NCBI RefSeq assembly: GCF_007474605.1
Contig: NZ_VHKL01000010.1
Location: forward strand, 186,001-250,000
Reading direction: 5' to 3'
Length of the DNA: 64,000 nt
Origin: Rhodoligotrophos appendicifer
Lineage (GTDB): Bacteria; Pseudomonadota; Alphaproteobacteria; Rhizobiales; Im1
The notes beneath the pieces were generated by a model. It was given only the letters and a program-made list of their open reading frames with translations. It had not been told where the DNA came from and searched no databases. Both the position numbers and the translations under genes were made by a program. Shown here piece by piece: positions 32,383 to 50,764 of the stretch; the stretch's first letter is position 1; each line of letters opens with the position of its first letter.

Positions 32383-32390
32383 GCGGCCGC

Positions 32391-33272: not shown

Positions 33273-33276
33273 CGGC

Positions 33277-34416
33277 TCACGGCTCGATGACGGTGACGGT
33301 CTCGAAGGCGCCGTTGGCCACTTTGCGGATCGCCACCGCCTTGGCCACGGTGCCGTTGTCGGCAAAGACATTGTCACCGGCCACGCCGGGAAACCGCTTG
33401 GCTTCGACAATCTTGGCACGCAACGCTTCACCGGCCTGCCCATTCGACGCCTTCAGCGCTTCGGCAAAGATCATCACCGCGTCATAGCCGTAGGTGGCAT
33501 AGGGGCTGGTTGGCTTCTGCTTGAAACGGGCCTCATAAGCATCGACGAACGCCTTCACGCCCGGATCGCTGCTGGCGGGATCGAAGGCGGTGGTGGTGTA
33601 GATGACGCCTTCCGCCGCGGGGCCTGCGGCATCCAGGAACTCTTTGCTCTCGATGCCGGCATAGGACAGGATCGGCAGGTCAGGCAGCATCTGACGGGCC
33701 TGTTTGACGGCGAAGGGCATTTCGGCCGGGGTGCCCACGATGTAAAGCGCATCTGGCGCACTCGCCCGGATTTTTGCCAGCTGGACGCCATATGTCGTCT
33801 CATTGGACTTGAATGCCTCCTGCGCCGTAATGGCGCCGCCGACTTTTTCAAAGCCCTTTGCGAATGAGGCCTGGTTGAAGGTTCCGGTGTCGTTGTTGAC
33901 GTAGAGGGTGGCCATTTTCTTGTAGCCGAGTGTGTCGCGGGCGTATTTCGACAGGACTCCCGTATCGAAATCGGAGAGTTGCAGCACACTGAAAACATTC
34001 TTGGCGATGCCGGCCATTTTGGGCGACTGGGCACCCACATTCATGACGACGACCTGCTTCTGGTCCGCCAGAGGTGCGATCGCCTCCATGACCGAGCTGC
34101 CGCCGGACAGGATGACATCGACGCCGTCCACGTCGACGAGCTTGTTGAAGCCCTCGACACCCTTGCTGGCGACCCACTGGGAGTCTTCTGCAACGATGGC
34201 GATTTGAGGCCCGCCTTGCGATTTCACGACATCGGCAGCGGTTTCAGCACCCATCAGCATCCATTGACCGATCTGAGCGCCGAGGCCGGACAGGGCCACA
34301 AGAACGCCGACCTTCGGCGCATCGGCGGCAAGAAGGGGTGATACTGCTCCTAGTCTGGCAAAAGAGACACCCGCCAGCAAGAGACCCCCATGCAAGACTC
34401 CACGCCGGTTGATCAT
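33277..34416 (-). CDS. Liv-type periplasmic solute-binding protein
   Basis: 379-residue Peripla_BP_6 protein, first gene of an eight-gene operon ending at 26791. The ATG at 34416 follows GGAGGAG by two bases; a GTG four codons earlier falls within that ribosome site. The N-terminus NRRGVLHGGLLLAGVS has a twin-arginine-like pair before the hydrophobic core, and cleavage is likely after LLAADA. Lobe strands VGVLVALSGLGAQIGQWML and ILSGGSSVMEAIAPLADQ are standard. Cargo is probably the substrate of the three enolase-superfamily enzymes in the same transcript. Confidence 0.9.
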   Translation of the reverse strand: MINRRGVLHGGLLLAGVSFARLGAVSPLLAADAPKVGVLVALSGLGAQIGQWMLMGAETAADVVKSQGGPQIAIVAEDSQWVASKGVEGFNKLVDVDGVDVILSGGSSVMEAIAPLADQKQVVVMNVGAQSPKMAGIAKNVFSVLQLSDFDTGVLSKYARDTLGYKKMATLYVNNDTGTFNQASFAKGFEKVGGAITAQEAFKSNETTYGVQLAKIRASAPDALYIVGTPAEMPFAVKQARQMLPDLPILSYAGIESKEFLDAAGPAAEGVIYTTTAFDPASSDPGVKAFVDAYEARFKQKPTSPYATYGYDAVMIFAEALKASNGQAGEALRAKIVEAKRFPGVAGDNVFADNGTVAKAVAIRKVANGAFETVTVIEP

Positions 34417-34430
34417 TTCTCCTCCCACTG

Positions 34431-34897: not shown

Positions 34898-37255
34898 TTA
34901 TGGATGCCGCTTGTTTGAATCCAGCGGCTCCAAGACGATTGTGAAGCTGGTTTCTTCTGCGATCCGCTCGGCTGAGTAAAGCAGGGGGACGTAGGCACCT
35001 TCGGCCCATAAGGGAGCAAAATCCTTGTAATGCGGAGAAAAAGGGTCGCCAGCCTGCCCCGGCATGTTGATGCAGAGGCTGTCGTCCCAATTCCCAACAT
35101 CCATCACGAGCCGAATGGAAGCCGCCGTCGTGACGCGGAAAATCGAATCGAAGTCCATGTGCATCACCGTCGACGAGTCCCCGCCAACGGGAAGAGGCCC
35201 CACATTCAACTGCGGCCCTTCCTCGCCTGCGAGATTGGATAATGCATGTTCGATCTCAGCACGATGCAAGCCGCCCCAAGACCAGTCTTTTGCGTCCGAC
35301 CCCATCAATTTGCGGCATTTCCGAAAGGCCGCATCGAGGCTTGCCAGGATCAATTCGTCAAAGCGCTCTGGACGACCATCCACAAAAAACCGTCCTGGTT
35401 GCTCCAGCACCTCAAGGACCGCTTCATTATCGCCCGGGCTGACAAGGTCACCGAGATGGGCAGGTACGAAGCGGGCGATCACCATCGGTTTCAAGAATCT
35501 CGTCCACCAGATTTCGAAGAAGGCCCCGGGCCCACTTTCGGCGGCGACCTTTCCATCCCACTCCTGGAGCAGACCGAGATCATACCGGTCTTCCTCGGTA
35601 TGTAGGCGTCTTAGGACGGGGAGTACCCGCCTCGCAACGAGCGACATGACATCGGTCTGAAGCCGGCATGAAGCCGTGAGACTGTGCGGCGGATCCTGGC
35701 CAAGGACTTCAGCAATTCGCCGCGACCGGGACCGCTCATCCCATTCGAAGCCGACGGGATGTGTCCGGTGGTCCCAATCGGCGGGCAAGTTCATCTCATT
35801 GGCCGAGAGAACGAAACCGCAGAGAGGATCAACCTCCGCTGCCATCCGATGCAGGGCCATACGCCCCCGCCATTCGAACCGGCCGTCCCCCGGTACCGGC
35901 ATCAGACCACGCCAGTTCGGACGATACGGGACATGGCCGGCAGGCAGCCGAGCGATCGTGCCCGTCACATCGGCATAGACTTGATTGACCGAGGGGGCGC
36001 CCCAGCCATCAAGAGCCGCGGTAAAGTCCGCCAAGCTCCCGGCGCGCATTGTCCTCAAGCTCGCCATATAGGGAGCCGTTCCGGGCTCGAACCAAACGGA
36101 CCGGATCGCAAAAGCCCTCCGACTTGAGGGTTCATCGAACACAACTGGCCCGTGACGACTGAACCTCAGCACTGCGATTTGATCTGCGCAGCCTTTGACC
36201 GGTATTGCCTCCTCGATCGTCTGGAAGTCAGCCCACTGAGCCGCGTCGAGATAGCGGGAGGCTCCGTCCGTTTCGTAGACGTAGAGGTCCTCCTGGTCGG
36301 CCCGCAGAATCGTCAAGCCGAAGGCCGAGGTCTCGTTATGGCCGATGCAAATGCCAGGGGAGTTGGGTTCGCCCGCACCGATGACGTTCCAACCTGGCGC
36401 CTTCAGATGGACCAGATAGCGAAGGGATGGGACTGTGATGCTGCGGTGCGGATCGCTGGCGAGGATCGGACGCCCTGTTTCACTGCGTGCCGCAGAGACC
36501 GCCCAGTTGTTGGAACCATCCGGACGCTCGCTGCTGGCCATAGAGATTTGGGCCATCGTCCGCCAACGATCGGCTTCCTCGAGCGTCGCGGAAAGCCGTT
36601 CCCGGCTGAACGTGACGGGCGCCGTCGCAAGATTTAGCAAGTCGACCACGGCACGCGGGATGTTTTTGAGCAGCGGGTTCGGATCGCGCTCATAATCCAC
36701 CTCCGGCTGAGGCTTGCAGCGTAAAAACTCGGCAAGATCCGATGTTTCCGTCAGGATCGATCGCGCGACCTCGGAGGCAGCGTTACGGCACAGGCTATGG
36801 CTTCGAATCCTGACCACATCTTCGGCATGCCATACGGCCGGAGCGGTCCCCAGAACCCGGAATTCGAGAGGCAGTGGTGCATCGCCAGCATCAACGAGTT
36901 CGATGTAGGCATTGATCCCGGAAGCGAAGGCGGAGCAGATCTGCTCGGCATGAGGCCCGTAATGCGACCACTCGGCTTGCATCTCGCCGCGATAGAGAAA
37001 AAGTCGCGCCGCCTTGTCCTGATGGAGATATCCAGGCCCGAAGTCGCGCGACAAGAGCCCGAGGCCGCGCTTTCTCCAGAGGTCGATTTGCCAGAGCCTG
37101 TCGCGGGCGGCGTTGAAGCCCTGGGCGTAGAATAGGTCTTCCATGGACTCCGCGTTGATATGCGGAATACCCCAGCGATCGACATCGATCCGCACCGGCC
37201 CCTTCAGGCCGGTGAGCCGGTAGGATGTTGCAGCGCTAGACATCGAAGGCGACAT
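34898..37255 (-). CDS. Penicillin-acylase family N-terminal-nucleophile amidohydrolase
   Basis: 785-residue Ntn hydrolase (PF01804) that cleaves an N-acyl amide. The proenzyme has an alpha part, spacer, and beta chain whose new N-terminus is Ser248 (RPDG-SNNWAVS). DRWGIPHI, AQGFNAARDRLWQIDL and ASDPHRSITVPS are family landmarks. No signal peptide is visible, so unlike penicillin G acylase it seems cytoplasmic. It is last in an operon with a beta-amino-acid transaminase and BKACE, suggesting it frees an amino acid from an N-acyl or amide-linked precursor. Confidence 0.88.
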   Translation of the reverse strand: MSPSMSSAATSYRLTGLKGPVRIDVDRWGIPHINAESMEDLFYAQGFNAARDRLWQIDLWRKRGLGLLSRDFGPGYLHQDKAARLFLYRGEMQAEWSHYGPHAEQICSAFASGINAYIELVDAGDAPLPLEFRVLGTAPAVWHAEDVVRIRSHSLCRNAASEVARSILTETSDLAEFLRCKPQPEVDYERDPNPLLKNIPRAVVDLLNLATAPVTFSRERLSATLEEADRWRTMAQISMASSERPDGSNNWAVSAARSETGRPILASDPHRSITVPSLRYLVHLKAPGWNVIGAGEPNSPGICIGHNETSAFGLTILRADQEDLYVYETDGASRYLDAAQWADFQTIEEAIPVKGCADQIAVLRFSRHGPVVFDEPSSRRAFAIRSVWFEPGTAPYMASLRTMRAGSLADFTAALDGWGAPSVNQVYADVTGTIARLPAGHVPYRPNWRGLMPVPGDGRFEWRGRMALHRMAAEVDPLCGFVLSANEMNLPADWDHRTHPVGFEWDERSRSRRIAEVLGQDPPHSLTASCRLQTDVMSLVARRVLPVLRRLHTEEDRYDLGLLQEWDGKVAAESGPGAFFEIWWTRFLKPMVIARFVPAHLGDLVSPGDNEAVLEVLEQPGRFFVDGRPERFDELILASLDAAFRKCRKLMGSDAKDWSWGGLHRAEIEHALSNLAGEEGPQLNVGPLPVGGDSSTVMHMDFDSIFRVTTAASIRLVMDVGNWDDSLCINMPGQAGDPFSPHYKDFAPLWAEGAYVPLLYSAERIAEETSFTIVLEPLDSNKRHP

Positions 37256-37300
37256 AAACTGAAGCTGGTGGGAGCCAGGAATCCCTATCGTCCTGGCTCC

Positions 37301-38014
37301 TCATGCGATGACCGGACGGCGATCGCTGCGGCTGCGCTGAGTGCCCTTTTGGACGGAACCTTGATGGGAGAGAGCTCGGCCCATGATCTCTGCGGCTTCG
37401 GTCAATTCGTGCTCGACAGCAGCCCGGGCGGACGGCCCATCCCCCCGCTCAAGGGCTCTCAGAACCCGATTGTGATCCTCAAGCCCGAGGCCAAGTGTAG
37501 TCTTCGTGCGCATGATATTCAGACACGGCCCGGCCTGCAGCCACAGAGTTTCGATGATTGGAATGAGCAGCGGCGAACGCGCTGCATGATAAACGGTAAA
37601 GTGAAAGGTGAGATTGAGCTCGAGATAGTTCCCGCTTCCGGTCCCGTTCGCGATGGCGAGCAGCTGCTGCTGGATTGAATGCAGCTTCTCCAGTTCCGTA
37701 TCAGAAATCGTTTGGCACGCCCATTCCGCAGCCTGCCCCTCAATGGCGCAACGGATGCGACGCAGGTCCATCATCTCTTCGGCGCTCAGCATGGCCACCT
37801 CGACGCCGCGGTGAGGCCGTTCGTTCAGGGCTTTGTCAGCAACCAGCCGTTGCAGGGCCTGCCGGATCGGCATGGCGCTGGTTCCGAAACGCTTCGCGAG
37901 GCGAGCGACCACGAGCCGCTCGCCAGGCATCAGGTCCCCACGCATCAGGTCCCGCTTGAGGCTTTCATACACTCGCTCATGGGTCTGCTTGCGCGCCGTG
38001 CCCGTCACATTCAT
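37301..38014 (-). CDS. GntR-family (FadR/FCD subgroup) transcriptional regulator
   Basis: 237-residue regulator: N-terminal winged HTH (YESLKRDLMRGDLMPGERLV, then FGTSAMPIRQALQRL, residues about 16-60) and an alpha-helical FCD ligand domain with the metal-site pattern ELNLTFHFTVYHAA and LGLEDHNRVLRAL. It sits between the BKACE and penicillin-acylase-type genes (gaps of 44 and 45 bp), so it is probably autoregulated and controls this module through the ATTTGATCAAAT-type sites at 40301, 40419 and 46168. Confidence 0.9.
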   Translation of the reverse strand: MNVTGTARKQTHERVYESLKRDLMRGDLMPGERLVVARLAKRFGTSAMPIRQALQRLVADKALNERPHRGVEVAMLSAEEMMDLRRIRCAIEGQAAEWACQTISDTELEKLHSIQQQLLAIANGTGSGNYLELNLTFHFTVYHAARSPLLIPIIETLWLQAGPCLNIMRTKTTLGLGLEDHNRVLRALERGDGPSARAAVEHELTEAAEIMGRALSHQGSVQKGTQRSRSDRRPVIA

Positions 38015-38058
38015 AAAGCCTCTCGACCCGACGCCGCCTCAGCCAGAGCCCGATCTGG

Positions 38059-38946
38059 TCATCGGTCGTCGCACAATCCGAGCAACTCTCGAGCCTCGGC
38101 AACCGTCGCAGGAACTGCGCCGAGCGCTTTTACCAGATGCACCGCATCTGTCACCAGATCCTCGTTGCTCGCGAGCACGCCCCGGCTGCGGAACAGATTA
38201 TCCTCAAGTCCCACACGGACATGGCCGCCCATCAGCACCGATTGCGCCGCCATGGGCATCTGTTCGGCACCGGCACCAAAAGCCGCCCACACGGAGCCGG
38301 GTGGCAGCATGTCATGCATCAGCAGCAACGTGCGGAGGTCGGAACCTGCACCCCAGCGCAGACCCAGTGCAAACTGGAAGAAGGGCGGAGGCGAGATGAG
38401 ACCGTCGGCCACCAAATTCAAGGCAAGCCGCAAATGACCGAGATCGAAGATCTCCAACTCCGGTTTTACCCCAATTTCCTGCATCCGGGTCGCCATACCA
38501 CGGATCATTTCGGGTGTACTGACATAGAGCTCAGTGGGAGCTCCATTGTTGAAGCTGCCGCAGTCGAGGCTGCAAATTTCGGGCCTCAGCGCCTCCACAT
38601 GGGCCATCCTTTCAAGGCCGCCGACCAAGTCGGTGACCGGATCGAAAGGTTGGCAATCGGGTGCGCCCAACACCAGCTTGCCACCCATGCCGGCCGTCAG
38701 ATTGATGATGATCTCGGTCCCGCTGGCCCGGATCTGCTCGACAGCCTCTCGATAGAGCGCAATGTCGCGGCTGCCTCGGGTCGTCTCGGGATCGCGCACG
38801 TGGATGTGAACGATTGCCGCTCCCGCTCGCGCGGCTTTGAGGGCATCCTCGGCGATCTGCGCAGGCGTCACCGGGACATGAGGACTTTTTTTTGTCGTGT
38901 CGCTGTCGCCGGTCAGAGCACAGGTGATGATGACGGGACGCGACAT
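38059..38946 (-). CDS. BKACE family beta-keto acid cleavage enzyme (DUF849)
   Basis: 295-residue BKACE protein, which condenses a beta-keto acid with acetyl-CoA and cleaves it to acetoacetate and a new acyl-CoA. Zinc-site motif HIHVRDP is at 47-53, with IIINLTAGMGG, SLDCGSFN, ELEIFDLGHL and the GGHVRVGLEDNLF strand near the C-terminus. Its stop overlaps nothing downstream; its start abuts the transaminase gene. Together these could convert a beta-amino acid to CoA esters. An 8-base A-run in codons 18-20 (38886-38893) is unusual. Confidence 0.92.
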   Translation of the reverse strand: MSRPVIITCALTGDSDTTKKSPHVPVTPAQIAEDALKAARAGAAIVHIHVRDPETTRGSRDIALYREAVEQIRASGTEIIINLTAGMGGKLVLGAPDCQPFDPVTDLVGGLERMAHVEALRPEICSLDCGSFNNGAPTELYVSTPEMIRGMATRMQEIGVKPELEIFDLGHLRLALNLVADGLISPPPFFQFALGLRWGAGSDLRTLLLMHDMLPPGSVWAAFGAGAEQMPMAAQSVLMGGHVRVGLEDNLFRSRGVLASNEDLVTDAVHLVKALGAVPATVAEARELLGLCDDR

Positions 38947-40271
38947 CAGGCGGCCCCCCGATGCTGGCCGACAGCCGGCAGGATTGCGCGATTGTTGTCT
39001 AGGAAAGCCCCGAAAACCTCCAGAAACCGCTGGATATGCGATTCCTCATGGCTGAGCGACAGGGCGAGCATGCCGCGGGGTGTCACGTATTGCCCGGCAA
39101 GCATCATTTCCAAGTGCCAAAGCTGGTTCAGCCTCTCATCGGCATCATGAAGATCGGCCGGCGACATCACGGGGCCTGAAACGAAATGCAGGTTCATCAA
39201 GGATCCATAGCCGCAGACAATGCCCGCTACGCCTTCGCTGTCGAGAAGGTTCTGCATGCCTGCCCTCAGGCGCTCTCCAAGGGCATTGAAACGGGCGGAG
39301 GCTTCTTTCGTCAGCACCCGAGTTAACCCTGTCAAACCGGCCGCCATACTCAGGATGTTGTTGTTGAAGGTGCCACCATGGCTGAAGACGTCCCGTCGGC
39401 TGGGGTCGAAATGGTCCATTAGCGCACCACGACCACCAAAGGCACCGAAGCTCGCTCCACCGCCCACATATTTGCCGAGTGTCATGAGATCCGGAGTGAC
39501 GCCCGTGACCGTCTGCAACCCCCCATAATCAAGGCGCGAGGTCATGACCTCGTCGAAGATCAGCAGCGCCCCGATATCCGTTGTCTTGGCGCGAAGCATG
39601 CCCAGAAACGGGTCGGATGCCCGGATGCAGCCGCCACCCCCCAGCATTGGCTCAAGGATGACGGCCGCCAGACTGTCCTTATGGGCCCCCAGCAGCATTT
39701 CAGTGCCTTCAACGTCGTTGTAGTCTGCGAATATGAACGGAAAGGGGAGATTGAGCACAGAGCCGCCATGGGCAAAGGTCAGGACTCCACCGTGATAACC
39801 TTCACGAAACACCAAGACCTCCTGGCGTCCCGTCAGGGCGCGCGCTGCAGAGATCGCCATGATGTTTGCCTCTGTCCCCGAATTGCAGAAACGCACGCGT
39901 TCCAATGCCGGAAATCGCTCAGTGAGAACCTCGGCCAGACGGGCCTCAAAGATGTTCGGGCCGCCTAATGCGATACCCTTGCGGACCGCAGAGATGATCG
40001 CTTCCTGAATGACGAGATTGGAGTGGCCGTAAAGGGCCGCCGAATATTCGCTGACGAAATCCGTGTAGCGATGCCCGTCGAGGTCGGTCACCGAACAGCC
40101 TTCGCCTTTTACAATCGCCACCGGGAACGGCTCGTACCAAAGCACTGAGCGCGTGTTGCCGCCAGGGAGACTGCGGCGCGCATCTTCATGCCGCGAGGCA
40201 CTCCTCGGATTTGCCTCGATATACCGGGTGCGGGCATCGAGCACGGCCGAATCGATGCTAGAATTACGCAT
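38946..40271 (-). CDS. Class III aminotransferase, beta-amino acid (beta-phenylalanine) transaminase-like
   Basis: 441-residue PLP enzyme related to glutamate-1-semialdehyde aminomutases. PLP lysine is Lys267 (TLGKYVGGG), Asp240 is in LIFDEVMTSR, and the carboxylate-binding Arg41 lies in GGNTRSVLWY. From memory these match Variovorax beta-phenylalanine aminotransferase (Arg41, Lys267, and the SPRG arginine near 398, here Arg399) better than haem-pathway GSAM. I chose the ATG at 40271 on that numbering and a GGGG upstream; earlier ATGs add non-family residues and would swallow the operator. Product would be a beta-keto acid, the BKACE substrate. Confidence 0.82.
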   Translation of the reverse strand: MRNSSIDSAVLDARTRYIEANPRSASRHEDARRSLPGGNTRSVLWYEPFPVAIVKGEGCSVTDLDGHRYTDFVSEYSAALYGHSNLVIQEAIISAVRKGIALGGPNIFEARLAEVLTERFPALERVRFCNSGTEANIMAISAARALTGRQEVLVFREGYHGGVLTFAHGGSVLNLPFPFIFADYNDVEGTEMLLGAHKDSLAAVILEPMLGGGGCIRASDPFLGMLRAKTTDIGALLIFDEVMTSRLDYGGLQTVTGVTPDLMTLGKYVGGGASFGAFGGRGALMDHFDPSRRDVFSHGGTFNNNILSMAAGLTGLTRVLTKEASARFNALGERLRAGMQNLLDSEGVAGIVCGYGSLMNLHFVSGPVMSPADLHDADERLNQLWHLEMMLAGQYVTPRGMLALSLSHEESHIQRFLEVFGAFLDNNRAILPAVGQHRGAA

Positions 40272-40300
40272 GGTCGTTGCCCCAAAGCTATGCATGCCAT

Positions 40301-40312
40301 ATTTGATCAAAT
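40301..40312. promoter_or_regulatory. Perfect palindrome ATTTGATCAAAT, probable GntR-type operator
   Basis: A 12-bp perfect palindrome 30 bp upstream of the transaminase start. A near-copy lies 118 bp away (40419) before the divergent transporter operon, and another before the gamma-glutamyltransferase gene. Shared occurrence at three operon heads points to one regulator, most likely the local GntR protein. Confidence 0.6.
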
Positions 40313-40418
40313 TATGAGTGCAAAGTTCTCCGGTCAAACGATATCGTAAAGCGTATGCCCGGTTTTTGTCTCCCGACGGCGCTCCCCTTTGGTGCAGCCG
40401 ACGTTTGACGTGCCGAGG

Positions 40419-40430
40419 ATTTGATCAGAT
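40419..40430. promoter_or_regulatory. Near-palindrome ATTTGATCAGAT, probable GntR-type operator
   Basis: Eleven of twelve bases match the palindrome at 40301. It lies 71 bp upstream of the dppB-type ATG in the divergent promoter region. Confidence 0.55.
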
Positions 40431-40501
40431 ACTAGTCGCCGTAATTGGGGGAGACGCCATTTGAATTGCGTATCGCGTGGCGATGCCGGAGGGAGACATC
40501 C

Positions 40502-41443
40502 ATGGCGCGAATGATCGTCATCCGCGTCATCCATTCGCTCCTCGTTCTTCTGGCGGTCAGTTTCGTCATCTTCATGGCAGTGGAAGTGCTGCCTGGTGAC
40601 GTGGCGCGGCGGATGCTGGGGCGGGAAGCCCCAGAGGAATCACTCGCGATCCTGCGCGCGCAGATGGGCCTTAATGAGCCAATTCTTTATCGCTACGTCC
40701 ATTGGCTGGGAAATGCGCTCACCTTCGATTTCGGGATGTCATTCGCTAATCGACGCCCCGTCTGGGACATCATCGCTCCGCGGCTGGCGAACACTGCCAT
40801 GCTGGGCGCCATCGCCCTCATCCTTTACCTGCCGATCGTCCTGGTGACCGCCATGATCCAGGCGACCCACCGTGATTATCCCATCGACCATGTTCTGACG
40901 GTTGCGACAATCATTGTCCTTTCGACCCCAGAGTTTCTTCTCGGCACCCTGATGTTGTTATGCTTCGGGCTGTGGCTGAATTGGTTTCCTGTGGTGTCGA
41001 CGTTGTATTCTGGGATGAGCCTCGCACAGCTGGGCAGCGCCCTTATCCTGCCCGCAGTTTCGCTCGCGATCATCATGTCGACTCACGCGGTGCGCATGCT
41101 TCGCGATAATCTCATCGAGACACTCGATTCTGAATTCGTGACCATGGCCGAGTTCAAGGGCTTGAGCCCGCTGCGAATTCTCATGCGACACGTCCTGCCC
41201 AATGCGCTCGGGCCCACCCTCAACATCACCGCGCTCAACCTGTCCTATGTCATCGGTGGTGTCGTGCTGATTGAACGGGTCTTCGTCTTTCCGGGGTTTG
41301 GAAGCCTGATGATCGACAGCCTTCAGCTCCGGGACGTGCCGCTGATCGAGGCCTGCGTGCTGATCGCTGCCTCCGTCTATATCCTGGGCAATCTGGTCGC
41401 GGACATCGTCTCGATCTGGCTCAATCCAAAGCTTCAGACATGA
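40502..41443 (+). CDS. Dipeptide/oligopeptide-type ABC permease (DppB-like)
   Basis: 313-residue permease with six membrane segments. The ATG at 40502 has GGAGGGAGA upstream and begins ARMIVIRVIHSLLVLLAVSF, the usual DppB opening. Further signs are VLPGDVARRMLG, the LGLNEP-type loop (MGLNEPILYRYVHWL) and the EAA-loop FVTMAEFKGLSPLRILMRHV. First gene of a three-gene operon divergent from the transaminase. Binding protein is encoded separately at 44418. Confidence 0.92.
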   Translation: MARMIVIRVIHSLLVLLAVSFVIFMAVEVLPGDVARRMLGREAPEESLAILRAQMGLNEPILYRYVHWLGNALTFDFGMSFANRRPVWDIIAPRLANTAMLGAIALILYLPIVLVTAMIQATHRDYPIDHVLTVATIIVLSTPEFLLGTLMLLCFGLWLNWFPVVSTLYSGMSLAQLGSALILPAVSLAIIMSTHAVRMLRDNLIETLDSEFVTMAEFKGLSPLRILMRHVLPNALGPTLNITALNLSYVIGGVVLIERVFVFPGFGSLMIDSLQLRDVPLIEACVLIAASVYILGNLVADIVSIWLNPKLQT

Positions 41444-42303
41444 CCACCATCGTCCTCAATGCTTCTCGCAGATGGTCGCACCTGCCAGTAACACTGAAGG
41501 CCGGCGCCATCATCCTGCTGATCCATCTGCTGCTGGCTGCCGTCGGGCCGTTCATCTCCCCCTATGGCTATGCCCAGATCAACACCGGCGCTCCAATTTC
41601 AGGCGCCAGCTTTGCACACCCCTTTGGTACAGACCAGTTGGGACGGGACGTGTTCAGCCGCGCCCTTTATGGCGGTCACATCGTGATCATCCTCTCCGTC
41701 ATGGGGACCCTGGTGGGCCTGGTGGCAGGGAGCGTTGTCGGCCTGTTCTCAGGCCTCGTCGGCGGCCGCGTCGATACGCTCATCATGCGGCTCTGCGAGG
41801 TCATGATCAGCATACCGTTCCTGATCCTGGCGCTTTTGTTGATCATGATTGCTGGACCCCAGGTCGCCGGAAATCCGTTGACCCTGATCTGGGTCGTTGG
41901 TCTCGTGTATTTCCCCCGCATCACCCGTATGGCCCGGGTCGCCGCGGTGGAAATCGCCTCGCGCGATTATGTGACCGCCGCCAAGCTCCGCGGCGAGACG
42001 AAGTGGGCAATCATGCGTACCGAGATCCTGCCCAATGCTGCCGGCATCCTGCTGGTCGAGTTCGCGATACGCGCCGGACATGCGCCGATCCTGATCGGCT
42101 CCCTCGGATTCCTCGGCTTCGGAATTCGCCCTCCCCTTCCGGAATGGGGCCTGATGATGAGCGAGTACCGGAACCTCATCGTGGTTGCACCCATGACCGT
42201 GGTCGGACCCGGTCTTATGCTCGCGACGCTTGTGATCGGACTTAATTTATTCACCGAGGGGCTGGCGCGAAAGATCGGGGCGAGGCCCGCCAATGATGGT
42301 TGA
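41440..42303 (+). CDS. Dipeptide/oligopeptide-type ABC permease (DppC-like)
   Basis: 287-residue permease partner. HPFGTDQLGRDVFSRALYG is the diagnostic DppC block, followed by GSVVGLFSGLVGGRVDTLIMR and the EAA-loop DYVTAAKLRGETKWAIMRTEI. ATGA overlap with dppB-type gene upstream and an 11-bp overlap with the ATPase gene downstream. Confidence 0.93.
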   Translation: MTTIVLNASRRWSHLPVTLKAGAIILLIHLLLAAVGPFISPYGYAQINTGAPISGASFAHPFGTDQLGRDVFSRALYGGHIVIILSVMGTLVGLVAGSVVGLFSGLVGGRVDTLIMRLCEVMISIPFLILALLLIMIAGPQVAGNPLTLIWVVGLVYFPRITRMARVAAVEIASRDYVTAAKLRGETKWAIMRTEILPNAAGILLVEFAIRAGHAPILIGSLGFLGFGIRPPLPEWGLMMSEYRNLIVVAPMTVVGPGLMLATLVIGLNLFTEGLARKIGARPANDG

Positions 42304-44341
42304 CCCGAGCATCATCGCCCAGGGGCCACATGCAGGCACAGTGCTGGTCCGGCTGCAAAATCTCACCGTCACCTATACCGGCATGCGAACGCCAGCCGTC
42401 AAGGATGTCTCTTTCGCCATTAAACAAGGTCAGGTCGTGGGCTTGGTCGGCGAGTCCGGTTCCGGAAAGAGCACGGTCGGCCGCCAACTCTTGTCCCACC
42501 GCGGTCCGGGCCTGACAGTAGCAGGACAGGTCCTCATCGACGACGTCGATATACTGACACTTCCGGAGGGCGAGCTCAGGAAAATGCGTGGCGCCAAGAT
42601 CGCCTTCGTTCCGCAAAATCCGACCACCGCCCTTAATCCAGCAATCCGGGTCGGAGCGCAGATTGCCGAAATCCTTTCGGTGCATCGCAGCGTCGCTGAT
42701 CACGCCGAAGCCAGAACGCGCGTGCTCGACCTGTTCCGCTCGGTTGGTTTCCCCCAGCCGGAGCACTTCGTCGACCGCTATCCCTCGCAGCTGTCAGGCG
42801 GCCAGCAGCAGCGGGTGACGATCGCGATGGCGATTGCCTGTAACCCAGACGTGGTGGTTTTCGACGAGCCTACGACCGGTCTCGACGTTACGACCCAGCG
42901 TCAGATCATCGATCTGCTGCTCAACCTCAAAAAACACGCACGCATGACGATGCTGTACATCACTCATGACCTGTTGTTGCTGCGTGAGCTCGCAGACGTC
43001 ATCGGCGTCATGTATGCCGGCCAACTGCTCGAGATCGGCGGCGTCGATGAGGTCTTCGACACGCCGCTGCATCCCTACACACAAGGGTTGCTGGCTTCGG
43101 TGCCGGGCATTGAGGCTAACCGATACCCAAAGCTGCGCGGAATTACAGAGCGGGCACAGGCGCCCGATGGCGGCTGTCCCTTCGCACCTCGATGCGAATA
43201 TGTAGAGGTTCGCTGTACAACGCCTGCCTTCGCGTGCCGGTCCTCAGCGTCGGCCCTCATGGAGCATCATGCGCAATGCTGGAAGGTCGGCGAGCTCCTT
43301 TTCGCTGAAGCGCACCCTGGCGCCGGCCTCGACTCCAACAGGCTTGTTCCTCAGAATATTGAGCCAGCAGTCCTCCACATCGACTCCCTGTCGGTCCGTT
43401 ATGCTCCAACCGGCTTTTTCCGTCGCGAAGACGGCGTGGCGGCTGTCGAGAGTGCGAGTCTTTCGGTTGGTAGGGGAGAAATTCTGGCTCTGATCGGGGA
43501 ATCCGGCTCAGGCAAGTCGTCCCTTGCGCGCGCGATTTGCGGGGCGGCACCCGTAGTTTCCGGCACGGTTCATCTCAATAATGAACTGGTCAGTCGAAAG
43601 CTCAGTGGCCGCACCCGCGAGCAGATCCGCCGCCTCCAATACATCTTTCAGAATCCTGACGCCTCCCTCAACCCGCGGATGACCATCCGCGCGACACTGG
43701 AACGGCCGCTCGGTACTCTGTTCGGCATCTGGGGTCAGACGGCAGAACCGAAAATTGGCAGCATCCTTGATGAGGTCGGGTTAGATCGGAAATTCGCGAC
43801 CCGGATGCCTGGTGAATTGTCGGGGGGCGAGCGTCAGCGGGTGGCCATTGCGCGGGCGCTCCTGGCCGAGCCTGATATTCTGATCTGCGACGAGGTCTTA
43901 TCAGCGCTGGACGTATCGGTGCAGGCCAGGGTCCTCGACTTGTTCGCCGCACTACGCACCAGTCGAAATCTTGCCCTCCTTTTCATATCCCACGACCTGA
44001 CGACGGTGCGGCAGATCGCGGATCGTATCGCTGTCATGTATCGAGGCCGGATCGTCTCCCATGGCCCCACCCATGCCATGCTGGACGGCCCCGCGCATCC
44101 GTATGTCGCCTCATTGCTCGCCTCCGCGCCGGGAATGGCCCGGAAGGTCGAAAGCAAGCCGCTGGCCCCCTCCGCAATTCCCGTGCCCGAAGCCTGCCAG
44201 TTCTTCGACCGCTGCGACCATCGCATGCCTGGGCTATGTGATCGCGTTCCACCCCCACTACGCAGGACGCCGCTGGGTTCCGAAGTGCTCTGCCAGCTCG
44301 CCCCGGAGGAAATGCCAATGCCCAGTCGTCCAATGGGGTAG
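42293..44341 (+). CDS. Fused double ATPase of a peptide-type ABC transporter (DppD-DppF-like)
   Basis: 682-residue single polypeptide with two complete ABC domains. The first has Walker A GESGSGKSTV (53-62), signature LSGGQQQRVTIAMAI and Walker B VVVFDEPTTGLD, then the oligopeptide/dipeptide C-terminal extension (GCPFAPRCEYVEVRC). The second, from about residue 360, repeats GESGSGKSSLARAI, LSGGERQRVAIARAL, DILICDEVLSALD and its own Cys-containing tail (FFDRCDHRMPGLC). Normally these are two genes, so this one gene replaces DppD and DppF. Confidence 0.93.
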   Translation: MMVDPSIIAQGPHAGTVLVRLQNLTVTYTGMRTPAVKDVSFAIKQGQVVGLVGESGSGKSTVGRQLLSHRGPGLTVAGQVLIDDVDILTLPEGELRKMRGAKIAFVPQNPTTALNPAIRVGAQIAEILSVHRSVADHAEARTRVLDLFRSVGFPQPEHFVDRYPSQLSGGQQQRVTIAMAIACNPDVVVFDEPTTGLDVTTQRQIIDLLLNLKKHARMTMLYITHDLLLLRELADVIGVMYAGQLLEIGGVDEVFDTPLHPYTQGLLASVPGIEANRYPKLRGITERAQAPDGGCPFAPRCEYVEVRCTTPAFACRSSASALMEHHAQCWKVGELLFAEAHPGAGLDSNRLVPQNIEPAVLHIDSLSVRYAPTGFFRREDGVAAVESASLSVGRGEILALIGESGSGKSSLARAICGAAPVVSGTVHLNNELVSRKLSGRTREQIRRLQYIFQNPDASLNPRMTIRATLERPLGTLFGIWGQTAEPKIGSILDEVGLDRKFATRMPGELSGGERQRVAIARALLAEPDILICDEVLSALDVSVQARVLDLFAALRTSRNLALLFISHDLTTVRQIADRIAVMYRGRIVSHGPTHAMLDGPAHPYVASLLASAPGMARKVESKPLAPSAIPVPEACQFFDRCDHRMPGLCDRVPPPLRRTPLGSEVLCQLAPEEMPMPSRPMG

Positions 44342-44353
44342 GTCTATCGACAG

Positions 44354-44380
44354 CCAGGGGGAGCATGAAGCTGCCCCTGG
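44354..44380. terminator. Stem-loop between convergent genes
   Basis: CCAGGGGGAGC and GCTGCCCCTGG pair over 11 positions with one mismatch around a 5-base loop, between the ends of the fused ATPase gene and the binding-protein gene. No clear T-run, so terminator activity is likely but unproven. Confidence 0.5.
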
Positions 44381-44417
44381 CCCCGTGCGGCAAAGCTCTA
44401 AAAGAAAATCCCGCTGC

Positions 44418-45935
44418 CTACCGATCCGAGCAGGTCACCGTCTCGAAATTCGGGCTGATGACCTGGAGCGGGGGCGAAAAACCATCGCAGGCTTTCCGCA
44501 TCGCATAGACGCTTTGATAGAAGAAGGGCACGATGACCGAGCCCTGTTCGGCAAGCAAGGTTTGCGCTTTCTTGTACAGCTCTACGCGCTTTGCGTCATC
44601 GAGCTCAGTTCTTGCTGACGCAATAAGAGCATCGAATTCGGGATTCTTCCAGCGACCCTCGTTGTACTTTGCGTTGCTGGAGAACAGATAGCTCAAGGCC
44701 TCTCCGGGCGGACGGCTCTGCCAAGTGGAAGTGAAGAAGGGTCGCTTCAGCCAGACCGTATCCCAGTAAGTGTCACCAGGATTGTTGACGAGTTGAATGC
44801 GAATGCCGGCCGGTGCGGTCATCTGCTGGACGGCTTGTGCAAGCCCGAGCATTCCGCCGGATTCAGCCGTATTCAGCTCGATGTCGATGCCATTCGGATG
44901 TCCCGCCTCGGCGAGCAGCTTCTTTGCGCCCTCAATGTCCTGCTTAGGGGCGTTAGGGCTATAGGCACTCGGCCAGCTTGGCGGGATCGGACTATCATTG
45001 CCTGGGACCGCCATGCCCAGCATCACTGTGTCGACCAGAACCTGGCGGTCGATCGCCTTCTTGACAGCCTGCCGCACGCGGACGTCGTCGAATGGCTTCG
45101 TGTCGCTCCACATGGCGATCGTCAAATAGGAGGCCGGCGGCGCCAACATGACTTCGATGTTGGGGTCCGCCTTCAAGATTGGAGCACTCGAAGCCCCGAT
45201 GCTGAGCATCAGATCGGCCTGACCGGATTGGATCGCCGCTGTACGCGTGACCTCTTCCAGCATGATGCTAATCTCGAGGCACTCGGCCTTAGGCAGGCCG
45301 GGTTTCCAATAGTTCGAGTTTTTGCGAAGGACACGCCTCGTCTCGGTGGGGCTGAAGGTTTCGACGGTGAAAGGACCGGTACCGATCGGCTTCACGCGCA
45401 GATCCTCAGACTTAGCACCGTCCTGCACCACATAGGCCTGTTTGATCCCGAAGAACGTGGGGAGTTCTGCAACGACATTTTCGGTCTTGAATTCTACGGT
45501 CAAGTCGTCGATCGCTTTGATGTTCTCTGCTTTTAAGAAACTTAGCGTGTTCGCCGCCGACGACCCGACTGCCGGATCGATAATCCGCTTGAATGAGTAG
45601 GCTACGTCCTTGGCGCTCAAAGGCTTGCCGTCACTGAATTTGATCCCTGGACGAAGCTTGAAGGTCCAGGTCTTGCCATCATCCGAGACGGACCAAGACT
45701 CAGCGAGGTCTGGCACCGGCTGCAATCCGTCGTCGCTAAGCTTGACCAGCTTGTTGAAAATTGCTGCCACACCCAGGCTGTCGTCGGTCGTCACCTGTAG
45801 TGCTGGATCAAGAGTGATGTTGGGAAGACTGCTCTCGGTGCCGATCACCCGGACGCATTCGGCGGCATGAGAAATTCCGGGCAAAGATAACGAAGCAACG
45901 AGCGAAAATGCAACAAAGCCGTGAGATCGGCGCAT
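44418..45935 (-). CDS. Family 5 (dipeptide/nickel-type) periplasmic binding protein
   Basis: 505-residue SBP_bac_5 protein. The ATG at 45935 has a near-perfect AGGAGGTGACC ribosome site and starts a signal peptide ending GISHA-AEC; a longer frame upstream has neither. Family blocks are LVKLSDDGLQPVPDLAESW, DGKTWTFKLRPGIKFSDGKP, KPIGTGPFTVETFSP and AIDRQVLVDTVMLG. It is convergent with the permease/ATPase operon and divergent from the gamma-glutamyltransferase gene, and should present an amide or peptide to that importer. Confidence 0.92.
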   Translation of the reverse strand: MRRSHGFVAFSLVASLSLPGISHAAECVRVIGTESSLPNITLDPALQVTTDDSLGVAAIFNKLVKLSDDGLQPVPDLAESWSVSDDGKTWTFKLRPGIKFSDGKPLSAKDVAYSFKRIIDPAVGSSAANTLSFLKAENIKAIDDLTVEFKTENVVAELPTFFGIKQAYVVQDGAKSEDLRVKPIGTGPFTVETFSPTETRRVLRKNSNYWKPGLPKAECLEISIMLEEVTRTAAIQSGQADLMLSIGASSAPILKADPNIEVMLAPPASYLTIAMWSDTKPFDDVRVRQAVKKAIDRQVLVDTVMLGMAVPGNDSPIPPSWPSAYSPNAPKQDIEGAKKLLAEAGHPNGIDIELNTAESGGMLGLAQAVQQMTAPAGIRIQLVNNPGDTYWDTVWLKRPFFTSTWQSRPPGEALSYLFSSNAKYNEGRWKNPEFDALIASARTELDDAKRVELYKKAQTLLAEQGSVIVPFFYQSVYAMRKACDGFSPPLQVISPNFETVTCSDR

Positions 45936-46241
45936 GGTCACCTCCTGTGAAACCCCTTGCCGGCACTGGGGCTTTCTTGAGCACCAAGCGGCCGACACTC
46001 CCCGGCGCAGCGCCATAACTGCTGCCATTTGACAGATTTGCGCGTTTTCTATTCTCCGTCAACCATGTCATTCTGTGATGACAAACCACCCCAGATAAGG
46101 TCCTTTAAGGATGCCGCTCCCTCAAGGCCTTGGATCAAATCCGCCCGCCTAGGACAATGGAGCGTGAATTTGATCAATTAGCATTGGCCATCAAAGTCGA
46201 CGGCCTGACACCTGGACAGATCACAACACGAGAGCAGCGGC
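45936..46241. promoter_or_regulatory. Divergent promoter region of the binding-protein and gamma-glutamyltransferase genes
   Basis: No gene. An inverted repeat TGTCAT-N6-ATGACA lies at 46066-46083. A minus-strand TTGACG (46058-46063) could be the -35 of the binding-protein gene. ATTTGATCAATT at 46168-46179 matches the operator at 40301 in 11 of 12 positions, 62 bp before the gamma-glutamyltransferase start, and a weaker version (TTGGATCAAAT) is at 46130-46140. Confidence 0.5.
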
Positions 46242-47819
46242 ATGATGCGAAATTTCCACTTTCCTGGACGGTCCTCGGTGCATGGCACGTCATACATGGC
46301 CGCCAGTTCACACCCGCTCTCGACTGCGGCGGCGGTCGGCATCCTCGCTCGGGGCGGAAACGCCGTCGATGCGGCGATCGCTGCAAGCGCCGTTCTGGGC
46401 GTCGTCGAGCCGGAGCAATGCGGAATCGGCGGCGACTGCTTTGCCTTGATTGCTCCCCCCGGCTCCGCACCAATTGCCGTAAATGGCAGCGGGCGGGCGC
46501 CACAAGCCGCCAATGCACACTGGTACCTGGATCGCGGGATAAGCGAGATTAATCCAGACACAGCCCACGCAGTTACCGTTCCCGGTGCCGTCCACGCCTG
46601 GTCGGAGATGTCGCGCGCCTATGGCACCATGGCGCTTGATGCGCTGCTCGCTCCTGCGATCGATCTTGCCGAGCATGGGCATGCTGTCCATGAGCGAGTC
46701 GCCTGGGATTGGGCAAACTATAGCGTCATGATGCGTGAACGACCTGAACTTGCCGCGCTCTATCTTTCCGATGGCAAGCCCCCTTCACCGGGCCAGGTAA
46801 CTCGACAGCTGCGCCTTGCCGACAGCCTCCGGCAGATCGCCTCCGAAGGTGCCGGCGCCCTGTATGGCGGATCCCTTGGGAAACGCTTGGTGGCCCATCT
46901 GGCCGGCCACGGCGGACTTCACAGCCTCGAGGATTTTGCCTCACATCGAACGGAGTTTGTCACGCCAATCAGCGTGCCGTTCGGTTCAGGCGAGGTGATT
47001 CAATGTCCGCCCAATGGTCAGGGAATCACGACGCTGCTTATGCTCGAGATGCTGAACGGGTTGAAACGCCCCGCTGATCCCCTAGGCATCGAACGTATCC
47101 ACCAGCTGCTCGAGGCCTATGCGATCGCGAAGCTGGAGCGTGACAGTCAAGTGGGAGATCCCGAATTTTCCACAGATCCAAAAATCTTACTCGATCCAAT
47201 CTTTGTCGCGGGTTTGCGGAGGCGCTTCCGTCCCTCCCTCGATCCGTTGCGATCTGAGGCCCGGACGATGGGGTCGGATACAGCGTTTGTCTGCGTCGTC
47301 GACCGAGAACGAACGGCGGTGTCCTGCATCAACTCAGTCTTCAAGAGCTTCGGCAGCGGGCTCGTCGCACCAAATACCGGCTTTCCATTGCACAATCGGG
47401 GTGTGGGTTTTGTCGTCTCCCCAGGACATCCCAACTGCATCGGTGCCGGCAAACGGCCGCTGCACACGATTATCCCGGGAATGATGATGCAGGGCGGCCG
47501 CCCTATCATCGTCTTCGGGATGGTGGGTGGCGATTTTCAGCCGCTCGGCCAAGTCCTCATGCTGCAGAACATGGTGGAATATGGCATGGATCCTCAGGCG
47601 GCAATCGACTTTCCGCGGGTCTATCCAGTTGGTGGCAAGCTGCGGATCGAGGAGGGAATTCCCGAAACCCTGTGCGCCGGGCTGTCTGACTTAGGCTATG
47701 ATCTTGAAAGGTCGGTCTCGCCAATCGGTCTCGCCCAGGCGATCCGGATCGACTGGCAGAACGGCGTCCTCACGGCAGGCTCGGACGGCCGAGCCGATGG
47801 ATGTGCTTTTGGCTGGTAG
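46242..47819 (+). CDS. Gamma-glutamyltransferase family Ntn hydrolase
   Basis: 525-residue GGT-family protein that cleaves gamma-glutamyl amides. The autoprocessing nucleophile is Thr347 (GSDTAFVCVVDRERTAVS), followed by SFGSGLVAPNTGFPLHNRG and TIIPGMMMQGGRPIIVFG with the GGDFQPLGQ oxyanion region. ASSHPLSTAAAVGILARGGNAVDAA at the start is family-typical, given in parts. No signal peptide is visible, so a cytoplasmic role on imported gamma-glutamyl compounds is likely. The second ATG (46245) is equivalent. Confidence 0.9.
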   Translation: MMRNFHFPGRSSVHGTSYMAASSHPLSTAAAVGILARGGNAVDAAIAASAVLGVVEPEQCGIGGDCFALIAPPGSAPIAVNGSGRAPQAANAHWYLDRGISEINPDTAHAVTVPGAVHAWSEMSRAYGTMALDALLAPAIDLAEHGHAVHERVAWDWANYSVMMRERPELAALYLSDGKPPSPGQVTRQLRLADSLRQIASEGAGALYGGSLGKRLVAHLAGHGGLHSLEDFASHRTEFVTPISVPFGSGEVIQCPPNGQGITTLLMLEMLNGLKRPADPLGIERIHQLLEAYAIAKLERDSQVGDPEFSTDPKILLDPIFVAGLRRRFRPSLDPLRSEARTMGSDTAFVCVVDRERTAVSCINSVFKSFGSGLVAPNTGFPLHNRGVGFVVSPGHPNCIGAGKRPLHTIIPGMMMQGGRPIIVFGMVGGDFQPLGQVLMLQNMVEYGMDPQAAIDFPRVYPVGGKLRIEEGIPETLCAGLSDLGYDLERSVSPIGLAQAIRIDWQNGVLTAGSDGRADGCAFGW

Positions 47820-47923: not shown

Positions 47924-48748
47924 CTAGTCGGGCCCGTCTGCCGTGGGTGTTTGATATCCGCTTTGGAGCCTTGAGACCGCGTTACGCATAACTGTGAGAA
48001 TCTGCCCCAGTTGATCATTCAGCCGATCTACCAGGCCACCCACGCCGACAGCAAAAGTCTCGCTGCCATTGATTGCGGGAAGCATCATAGATATGCAGCC
48101 GCCGGCTCTCAGGGGCAGGTTAGGCAGGTAACAATAGCCCTTGTCGCTTATGTCCTTCAGGCGCTCTGCGATGTCATTGATGTTGGTTTTTTGGCCCTTA
48201 TCCGCGAGGCGAGCATTGATCTGCTTACAAAGCCGCTCCGCCGTTGCCAACGGCATCTGGCTCAGGAACATCCAGCCGAGGCTCGTTCTCGTCAACGGGA
48301 GCTGACTCCCTTCCACAATGTGGAACCTAATCTCGTGCGAAGAATCGATAACCTTTTGGTACTGGATAAACTGGTCGTTTCTTGACGCCAAGAGGACTGT
48401 TTCTCCTGTGGCACGGCTAATCTCCTCCATCAAAGCTAGAATACGGTCGTCCAGCCGGCTGTCCAGCCAATGACTGAGCTGACTGATCTTCGTGGTCGGG
48501 AAATAACGTCGGGCTTCCCGATCGTAATGAAGATAGCCGAGCTGGACCAGACTCTTCAGCAAAACCGTCGTGCTTGATTGAGGATACTCCAAACGTTCCA
48601 CGATCTCCTTCAATGGAGCCGGTCGTTTGATGACAGCGAACATTTCAAAAATCTGCAGCACCCGTGCCGCCGACTTTACTGGTGAAGCATTCATAGCACC
48701 GTTTCTGACGGTACGCTCGGCGTCTCCTTCAGAGGCGGCGCGGGTCAT
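47924..48748 (-). CDS. IclR-family transcriptional regulator 3
   Basis: About 274 residues. HTH region APLKEIVERLEYPQSSTTVLLKSL, then the effector domain with TRTSLGWMFLSQ and SMMLPAINGSETFAVGVGG. The HTH differs clearly from the two island IclR proteins. Start is uncertain: the ATG at 48748 (GGAAG upstream, overlapping the VOC gene by 20 bp) is preferred, while 48694 begins closer to the HTH. It follows the VOC gene and probably controls both that gene and the divergent operon from 49839. Its last 38 bases have a relic copy at 2026-2063. Confidence 0.85.
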   Translation of the reverse strand: MTRAASEGDAERTVRNGAMNASPVKSAARVLQIFEMFAVIKRPAPLKEIVERLEYPQSSTTVLLKSLVQLGYLHYDREARRYFPTTKISQLSHWLDSRLDDRILALMEEISRATGETVLLASRNDQFIQYQKVIDSSHEIRFHIVEGSQLPLTRTSLGWMFLSQMPLATAERLCKQINARLADKGQKTNINDIAERLKDISDKGYCYLPNLPLRAGGCISMMLPAINGSETFAVGVGGLVDRLNDQLGQILTVMRNAVSRLQSGYQTPTADGPD

Positions 48749-49667: not shown

Positions 49668-49680
49668 ACAGCCCTCCAAT

Positions 49681-49746
49681 TCACATATGTGATACTGAAA
49701 ATCTTATATGAGAAATAGTTGACGGTCCAGCTCTTGGCTATATCCT
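49681..49746 (+). promoter_or_regulatory. Paired operator and promoter between the VOC gene and the P450 operon
   Basis: TCACATATGTGA (perfect palindrome, 49681-49692) and TCTTATATGAGA (49702-49713) start exactly 21 bp apart, two helical turns. Downstream, TTGACG (49719-49724), a 16-bp spacer and TATCCT (49741-49746) make a plus-strand promoter. The pair lies upstream of that -35 (activator position) while overlapping the start region of the VOC/IclR transcript. Binding by IclR 3 is inference. Confidence 0.6.
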
Positions 49747-50751: not shown

Positions 50752-50764
50752 GGATTGAACCGGT

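Follow-up and report, generated by a model that had tools for sequence, protein, structure and literature searches.

Comparative support for a transaminase-to-BKACE route in a candidate GntR-controlled amide degradation cluster of Rhodoligotrophos appendicifer

Does the gene cluster at positions 34898-47819 of a 64,000-nucleotide stretch of Rhodoligotrophos appendicifer DNA (the window; contig NZ_VHKL01000010.1, positions 186,001 to 250,000) encode a route in which an amide is imported and cleaved, the released beta-amino acid is transaminated, and the resulting beta-keto acid is split by a beta-keto acid cleavage enzyme (BKACE)? This route was proposed in an earlier note made from the letters and open reading frames of the window. 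All of the genes that it named, i.e., an Opp-type importer, two Ntn hydrolases, a class-III transaminase (AT), a BKACE, and a GntR regulator, were found as open frames. They are spread over several transcription units and are not ordered along the DNA, so the description "every step in order" did not hold. Overall, the interpretation was partly supported: the regulon, the AT family, the AT-BKACE pairing, and the amide hydrolases stood, whereas gamma-glutamyl substrates, a fixed acylase, and beta-phenylalanine did not. We consider it probable that the cluster is a regulon under GntR control that degrades an N-acyl or peptide-like amide of a beta-amino acid.

The minus-strand run of the cluster consists of the AT, BKACE, GntR, and acylase genes. 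The AT gene (38946-40271, minus strand) and the BKACE gene (38059-38946, minus strand) overlap by one base at the AT stop and the BKACE start (TGATG); gaps of 44 bp and 45 bp follow between BKACE and GntR and between GntR and the acylase gene, respectively. The longest AT open frame begins with TTG and extends from 38946 to 40337, which is too long because an operator described below falls inside it. In-frame ATG codons are present at 40295 and 40271, and the start is probably ATG 40271 (or 40295).

If the product of this AT is the substrate of the BKACE, BKACEs of different branches should have been paired with the AT repeatedly. The AT was searched against 297 genomes of the order (its own included), and 38 of them matched at E values up to 1e-100; one partial match (G038:C21) was excluded from the counts. 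Genes were called with a codon-usage caller that reproduced the window genes, and a greedy longest-ORF caller was dropped owing to spurious antisense genes in high-GC DNA. In the 37 other genomes, a BKACE was located within 2 kb of the AT in 4 of 39 loci (L095, L099, L107, and L108), whereas the 159 BKACE genes that these genomes hold would lead one to expect 0.175 (Poisson P = 3e-5). When the genome's own AT paralogue and six loci from a phylum search were added to the 39 loci of the order, five of the 46 AT loci outside the window had a BKACE within six genes of the AT, and none of the 219 more distant genes was a BKACE. Plasmids gave a similar picture: 18 of 33 plasmid AT records were opened (nine S. 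meliloti, three S. medicae, one R. bangladeshense, and two Phaeobacter records were excluded), and a BKACE was present in 8 of the 18 (seven by record annotation, L231 by profile). Record annotation was used for the BKACEs of L223, L226, and L229, which the profile labels missed, and a Streptomyces BKACE locus (L234) was excluded for having no annotation. The search for the same cluster in other genomes, which the earlier note had called for, thus showed that the AT-BKACE pairing recurs.

The paired BKACEs are not of one kind. On the BKACE tree, AT-linked BKACEs occupied at least five places: G246/G591/G717/G738/G227; Phyllobacterium/Sinorhizobium; G156 beside BsfD; Rhizobium sp. CB3060 beside A. 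fabrum; and the area of the window and G229. The placement of P. graminis, Microvirga, and Phaeobacter was less sure. When the presence of a BKACE was mapped as a label on the AT tree, eight gains or losses were counted, six of them forced by well-supported branches, and the label clustered more than in any of 500 shuffles. Together, these comparisons give strong support to the idea that the AT hands its product to the BKACE, in agreement with the earlier proposal that the transaminase would make the very compound class that BKACE cleaves.

The assignment of the AT was clear. For the AT (TRANSAMINASE), the best solved relatives were the beta-transaminases 6iz9 and 2yku and VpAT (4ao9), with E values from 1e-127 to 7e-127. 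Residues R41, V43, E75, Y76, K267, and R398 of VpAT correspond to R63, V65, E97, Y98, K289, and R421 of the open frame, and all six are identical. The Arg41 and Lys267 pointed out previously were thereby recovered; both are in VpAT numbering, because they align at R63 and K289 of the open frame. In a tree of 71 AT rows, 69, the window included, fell on the VpAT/MesAT side, apart from GSAM and StoTA (separating branch support, 99/98; the two outside rows are long and drew a tool warning), and R41, K267, and R398 were conserved in 69, 71, and 69 rows, respectively. This alignment and tree place the AT in the VpAT/MesAT beta-amino-acid family, and neither the tree nor the motif points to a semialdehyde enzyme. 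We take Lys267 to be the pyridoxal phosphate (PLP) lysine of VpAT; the roles of K267 and R398 are assumed here. In VpAT, R41 binds the substrate carboxylate, V43 and Y76 bind the aromatic ring, and Glu75 has a carboxylate role, and according to its authors the motif leaves aliphatic substrates possible (PMC9850050). The AT may therefore be expected to act on free beta-amino acids, yielding a beta-keto acid.

The two enzymes could also work in the reverse order, as in variant lysine fermentation, with BKACE first and a Kat-type transaminase acting on its beta-amino acyl-CoA product. Gene context led to Kat, a HemL-like beta-transaminase that shares one pathway with Kce and that is described as active on 3-aminobutyryl-CoA and thioester mimics and inactive on the free acids tested (PMC3149608). 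We regard this order as distinctly improbable for the window: its AT falls in the VpAT/MesAT clade, which uses free beta-amino acids, and retains E75 as well as R41, the residue that contacts the free carboxylate (PMC9850050); MesAT and Kat are only 24% identical (PMC3149608); and the module lacks a dehydrogenase to supply the beta-keto acid in advance.

Two observations concern the AT family more broadly. The genome has a second transaminase of the same family (L096, G000:C4:299983-301284; 58-59% identical), and neither a BKACE nor the operator 10-mer TTTGATCAAA (see below) was found within its 19.9-kb stretch; its neighbours, assigned by eye, include a TRAP transporter and polyamine-type genes. 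In L126, L128, and L129, HyuA-HyuB genes stand beside two tandem class-III transaminases, a recurrent arrangement of this AT family.

The BKACE scored 327.8 bits with PF05853 (cut-off, 24.8). In Kce numbering, His46, His48, and Glu230, which we take to be the Zn ligands, and the presumably catalytic Glu143, Arg226, and Asp231 are all kept. Its score with the Kce equivalog NF052387 (242 bits) was below the curated cut-off of 382, and it carries Phe at Kce Tyr145 and Asp at Kce Asn108. Both changes were common to all eight rows beside carnitine dehydrogenase or a close homologue, and because of the shared Phe we filed the window BKACE as carnitine-type and not as Kce. On the BKACE tree, the window sequence lay in a 14-row carnitine-dehydrogenase-linked branch (96/90), near its base and with weak inner support (85/47), and it was 51-57% identical to the rows beside carnitine dehydrogenase. 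Doubtful rows in the alignment were P. graminis (Ala at His46), Microvirga (short N-terminus), and G000_C21 (long branch). Because the BKACE belongs to this branch, beta-phenylalanine, the model substrate of the original proposal, is not the best-supported substrate, although the AT keeps its aromatic-binding residues. Known BKACE substrates include benzoylacetate (group G3) and positively charged compounds (group G5) (PMC4922564, with the groups taken second-hand).

The Phe at Tyr145 is also the feature that links the window enzyme to BsfD (PMC12871164), which transfers an acetyl group and decarboxylates without cleavage. Under such chemistry the cluster would make its compound and not degrade it, and GNAT genes do lie near some ATs. 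This seems very improbable to us, since the Phe is found in all eight rows beside carnitine dehydrogenase, which is a catabolic context, and since the importer, the hydrolases, and the acetoacetate-using enzymes of relatives point to catabolism. Separately, PMC12871164 claims that Tyr145 is present in all BKACEs; Phe at this position in L168, L169, L171, L179, L193, L195, L196, and L197 contradicts that statement.

A carnitine-like compound might itself be the true substrate, with the BKACE as a spare dehydrocarnitine enzyme and the AT unrelated to it. Among eight annotated plasmid relatives of the BKACE, a named carnitine dehydrogenase was present within two genes in four, and a 3-hydroxyacyl-CoA-dehydrogenase-type relative (36-47% identical to the enzyme on contig C17) within the same distance in three; the exception was a HyuA-HyuB-BKACE-SDR arrangement in Mesorhizobium japonicum. 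However, the genome holds four further BKACEs. The one on contig C17 shares 53-54% identity with the window BKACE, and the gene beside it encodes a protein homologous to named carnitine dehydrogenases (43-50%). Because the genome thus has its own carnitine-type pair, we rejected a carnitine cluster as the main explanation of the window. The module has no such dehydrogenase, and its AT and BKACE genes overlap by one base, which makes the carnitine explanation very improbable.

If the genes serve one pathway, a common regulator would be expected to tie them together. The GntR gene (37301-38014, minus strand) encodes a protein with GntR and FCD domains. The pattern WTTTGATCARW gave four strand matches (three sites) in the window, compared with 0.17 expected from shuffles, and ATTTGATCARWT occurred at three sites in the whole 5.59-Mb genome, all within the cluster: ATTTGATCAAAT in the AT promoter (40301-40312), ATTTGATCAGAT in the OppB promoter (40419-40430, plus strand), and ATTTGATCAATT in the intergene between the divergent genes for the binding protein and the gamma-glutamyltransferase (GGT)-like enzyme (46168-46179, plus strand). 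A reversed control pattern had no match in the whole 5.59-Mb genome. These results support the cluster as one regulon, and the GntR/FCD protein is the likely binder of the ATTTGATCAAAT palindrome.

A search of the order (297 genomes) yielded orthologues of this regulator with 47-49% identity in G055 and G246, besides weaker matches, and a search of 151 genomes of one family yielded them in G591, G717, and G738. A BKACE lay within two genes of the GntR gene in all five loci and an AT beside it in four. The palindrome TTGATCAA was found in the divergent-pair intergene at 5/5 loci, and L183 has an additional copy overlapping the start that was called for the binding protein gene. The shared palindrome was confirmed, and control by one GntR regulator was supported. 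The 10-mer TTTGATCAAA was present in four of the five loci, with near variants in the fifth (L232), and occurred once in the 1,990,557 bases of 108 control loci. This control excluded the window's own locus, the loci of the five orthologues, L219 (two matches), and loci shorter than 9 kb. The sole control site came from the locus of an own-genome GntR paralogue (43% identity) with a Pot-type importer; TTTGATCAAA was also present in the excluded short loci L201/L209 and L207, which carry more distant GntR homologues (40% and 35%). In the window's own genome, the paralogous GntR gene (43%) of L211 (G000:C1:840000-859900) is accompanied by TTGATCAAAGATCAA-type sites, a Pot-type importer, and what looks by eye like a FAD oxidoreductase gene; this locus is perhaps a sister regulon.

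The remaining parts of the regulon would supply the beta-amino acid. Diverging from the AT run on the plus strand, profiles identified an OppB-type permease (40445-41443; likely start, ATG 40502), an OppC-type permease (41440-42303), and a fused OppD-OppF ATPase with two ABC_tran and two oligo_HPY stretches (42293-44341). A terminator-like inverted repeat (44353-44381) separates the OppD-OppF gene from the convergent gene of a periplasmic binding protein of family 5 (SBP_bac_5; 44418-46028, minus strand; likely start ATG 45935, with a hydrophobic N-terminus), and the GGT-like gene (G_glu_transpept; 46242-47819, plus strand) diverges from the latter. The other amide hydrolase gene (34898-37255, minus strand) encodes an S45 Ntn acylase of the Penicil_amidase family (PF01804, 621.9 bits). 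It matched the D-succinylase 7eby over residues 9-770 (E = 3e-195), and its predicted nucleophile is Ser248, the query residue at which the beta chains of other acylase matches begin. The earlier penicillin-acylase label is corrected accordingly: among solved structures, the nearest relative is D-succinylase and not penicillin acylase. Hydropathy revealed no N-terminal hydrophobic stretch in the acylase; in the GGT-like protein the most hydrophobic part of the N-terminus is at residues 41-55, which we read as internal. For these two reasons, both enzymes are probably cytosolic and work once the amide has been taken up.

The GGT-like protein keeps the catalytic Thr391 (E. coli numbering), as expected for a gamma-glutamyltransferase-type Ntn hydrolase. 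R114, N411, Q430, D433, S462, and S463, which we take to form the gamma-Glu site, are replaced by S, F, R, G, H, and T, respectively, and the TIGR00066 score (316.6 bits) was below the cut-off of 357.85. Gamma-glutamyl specificity, part of the original proposal, was accordingly rejected, as none of the six site residues is present.

The acylase itself suggests another explanation, in which it is a true D-succinylase acting on N-succinyl-D-amino acids, so that the imported compound would be an alpha- or D-amino acid amide and AT and BKACE a separate route under the same regulator. Besides its similarity to D-succinylase, the acylase gene is the last in its operon, behind a hairpin, and was unlinked to this AT in 29 acylase loci (flanks of about 9-10 kb, with some contigs ending sooner; L006 and L052 look like one locus). 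We consider this explanation improbable, because the acylase gene follows GntR by 45 bp on the same strand as AT-BKACE-GntR, other AT-BKACE clusters have other amide-cleaving families (M20, amidase, and M81), and the operator also precedes the importer and the GGT-like gene. The hairpin, a perfect 10-bp inverted repeat with a 10-nt loop and no T run (37271-37300), lies between the GntR and acylase genes and may tune acylase expression. The acylase as a conserved core of the module was rejected, since 0/29 acylase loci carry an AT above 29% identity. An Opp set was present within 10 kb of the acylase in 7 of these loci, and L012 has a weak AT (29%) and BKACE (34%) about 6 kb away. Hydrolases of six kinds (M20, amidase, GGT, HyuA, HyuB, and phosphotriesterase family) were found within six genes of the AT in 18/46 loci, or in 15/46 without loci having the phosphotriesterase family only.

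Related clusters contain further parts. In Rhizobium sp. CB3060, an ABC importer, an M81 peptidase, BKACE, a thioesterase, AT, 3-oxoacid CoA-transferase A/B, acetyl-CoA acetyltransferase, and glutamate dehydrogenase occur together, with TTGATCAA sites upstream of the importer's binding protein gene, between the M81 and BKACE genes, and between the thioesterase and AT genes. In Phyllobacterium, genes for an amidase, an arginine-deiminase-family protein, a Zn hydrolase (M20), an importer, and acetoacetate-CoA ligase are divergent from AT-FCD-BKACE; the same AT-FCD-BKACE order is present on plasmids of S. medicae, S. meliloti, and Rhizobium 007, with gaps, Phyllobacterium included, of 31-37 and 43-56 bp. 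BKACE and AT are 2 bp apart in Microvirga, where an M20 gene lies 1.6 kb before and a CoA-transferase gene 2.5 kb after them. G246 and G591 share a Pot-type importer, M20, a FAD oxidoreductase, AT, GntR, BKACE, and a thioesterase, whereas M20 was noted at the G717 locus and the FAD oxidoreductase at the G738 locus. G229 has the order HyuA-HyuB-GGT-BKACE-AT. G055 belongs to the same genus as the window; its Opp genes share 50-61% identity with the window's and accompany an N,N-dimethylformamidase-like hydrolase, a FAD oxidoreductase, GntR, BKACE, and a thioesterase. The thioesterase, CoA-transferase, thiolase, acetoacetate-CoA ligase, and glutamate dehydrogenase of some clusters are those expected for follow-on steps; no thioesterase, CoA-transferase, or thiolase gene was found within the window module itself. 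At two plasmid AT loci, CoA-transferase A/B and thiolase take the place of BKACE, which would be another use of the beta-keto acid.

CoA-transferase A/B and an ArgE/DapE-type deacylase occur near the AT in L227, L230, and L232 (with a thiolase in L227 and L230), a set that may process the beta-keto acid in place of BKACE. An arginine-deiminase/DDAH-family protein is encoded inside the rhizobial AT-FCD-BKACE cluster (L224:4788-5702, with equivalents in L223, L226, and L229), which hints that the substrate carries a guanidino or amidino group, as beta-arginine does. M81 (MlrC-type) peptidases were present near a beta-transaminase in L165, L219, L222, and L225. MlrC releases Adda, a beta-amino acid, from linear microcystin.

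Several points weigh against the proposed route. Within 9.3 kb, the AT-BKACE excess was weaker (4 vs 0.70 expected, P = 0.006). In 41/46 AT loci there was no BKACE within six genes, implying that the AT also serves other routes. Four of the eight plasmid cases (L223, L224, L226, and L229) represent a single related cluster. At L220, the Phaeobacter BKACE is 6.3 kb away in a group of pca genes and possibly acts on 3-oxoadipate; without it, the plasmid count is 7/18. The eight changes counted on the AT tree could reflect loss of the BKACE as well as its gain. The G055 regulon includes a FAD oxidoreductase but lacks an AT nearby, and the acylase was not seen with this AT in the other acylase loci. 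Enrichment of amide hydrolases near the AT was only about two-fold (32/503 near genes and 7/219 far genes), which is suggestive only. The window BKACE has Phe where canonical BKACEs have the catalytic Tyr145. Finally, the substrate hints conflict, as the AT retains an aromatic (or aliphatic) pocket and the branch in which the BKACE falls suggests a cationic keto acid.

With these points counted, a catabolic regulon for a beta-amino acid amide is still the explanation that we prefer. In this regulon, the GntR protein would probably repress the three promoters at ATTTGATCAAAT until an inducer comes. The Opp-type importer would take up the intact amide, and the D-succinylase-like acylase and the GGT-like enzyme would cleave it in the cytosol. 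The VpAT/MesAT-type transaminase would then pass the beta-amino group to a keto acceptor, and BKACE, with acetyl-CoA, would split the resulting beta-keto acid by a retro-Claisen reaction, ahead of decarboxylation, to give acetoacetate and a CoA ester shortened by two carbons. Both products would be finished by enzymes encoded outside the module; in some relatives, genes for such enzymes are part of the cluster. A much bolder extension can be drawn from the same comparisons: the transaminase-BKACE pair would represent an undescribed, widely dispersed type of beta-amino acid breakdown with interchangeable amide hydrolases and BKACE branches, partly on conjugative plasmids of legume symbionts, and the window substrate would be an amide of a cationic beta-amino acid (e.g., N-acyl-aminocarnitine, beta-lysine, or beta-arginine) giving dehydrocarnitine or a look-alike as the keto acid. 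We think this extension rather unlikely as a whole. Among the matches listed, the aminocarnitine literature was, by title, on pharmacology, medicine, or chemistry.

The genes on either side were also inspected. To the left (28981-34428) are a mandelate-racemase-type enolase superfamily enzyme and an importer assigned by eye to the branched-chain amino acid type; no operator copy was found in this stretch. To the right (47924-52729), an IclR regulator, a glyoxalase-fold protein, a luciferase-like monooxygenase, and, by eye, an HpaI-type aldolase apparently belong to another pathway.

If the preferred route is correct, BKACE would capture the keto acid before it decarboxylates and save its carbon as acetoacetate and a CoA ester, which would be one answer, for beta-amino acids, to the fate of an unstable beta-keto acid. 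It would also explain what orphan clusters annotated as "3-keto-5-aminohexanoate cleavage protein" do, and it would provide a regulator-operator pair usable to find more clusters and matched transaminase/BKACE pairs for biocatalysis.

All of the parts are of known kinds, and the joining of the transaminase to BKACE is the new element. L-carnitine is degraded via carnitine dehydrogenase and a BKACE that cleaves dehydrocarnitine. The window BKACE is of the same branch, and in both cases a beta-keto acid and acetyl-CoA would give acetoacetate and a CoA ester; in contrast, the keto acid comes there from a beta-hydroxy acid through a dehydrogenase, and here from a beta-amino acid through a transaminase behind amide hydrolases. 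The acylase finds its nearest solved relative, over residues 9-770, in Cupriavidus D-succinylase (PDB 7eby and 7ea4), differing from it in having no N-terminal hydrophobic stretch. Lysine fermentation in its Kat variant likewise puts a BKACE (Kce) and a HemL-like beta-transaminase in one pathway, but Kat works after Kce on a CoA ester and is far from MesAT (24% identity; PMC3149608). In the oxidative deoxyribonate pathway, a BKACE is also part of a small catabolic operon with acetoacetate activated afterwards, whereas an SDR dehydrogenase feeds it and no nitrogen is involved (PMC6365646). Transamination of beta-phenylalanine by VpAT of Variovorax, MesAT of Mesorhizobium, and Paraburkholderia PsJN uses the same transaminase family with the same signature residues; there the beta-keto acid decarboxylates to acetophenone, whereas here a dedicated BKACE would follow (PMC6150868). 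What becomes of the beta-keto acid formed from (S)-beta-phenylalanine is, according to that source, uncertain. As the earlier note had supposed, no natural pathway with a beta-transaminase before BKACE was found among the matches listed from the literature searched, most subscription journals being outside it. Papers on benzoylacetate together with beta-phenylalanine dealt, by title, with synthesis or assays, and the one joining BKACE with an aminotransferase dealt with a phosphonate. The closest match to the two-enzyme logic is the module of the CORE cycle, in which a beta-alanine:pyruvate transaminase and a BKACE work together in E. coli cells; that pair is engineered and has a different transaminase and a non-native substrate, malonate semialdehyde (PMC11961710), whereas the pair in R. 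appendicifer would be a natural counterpart.

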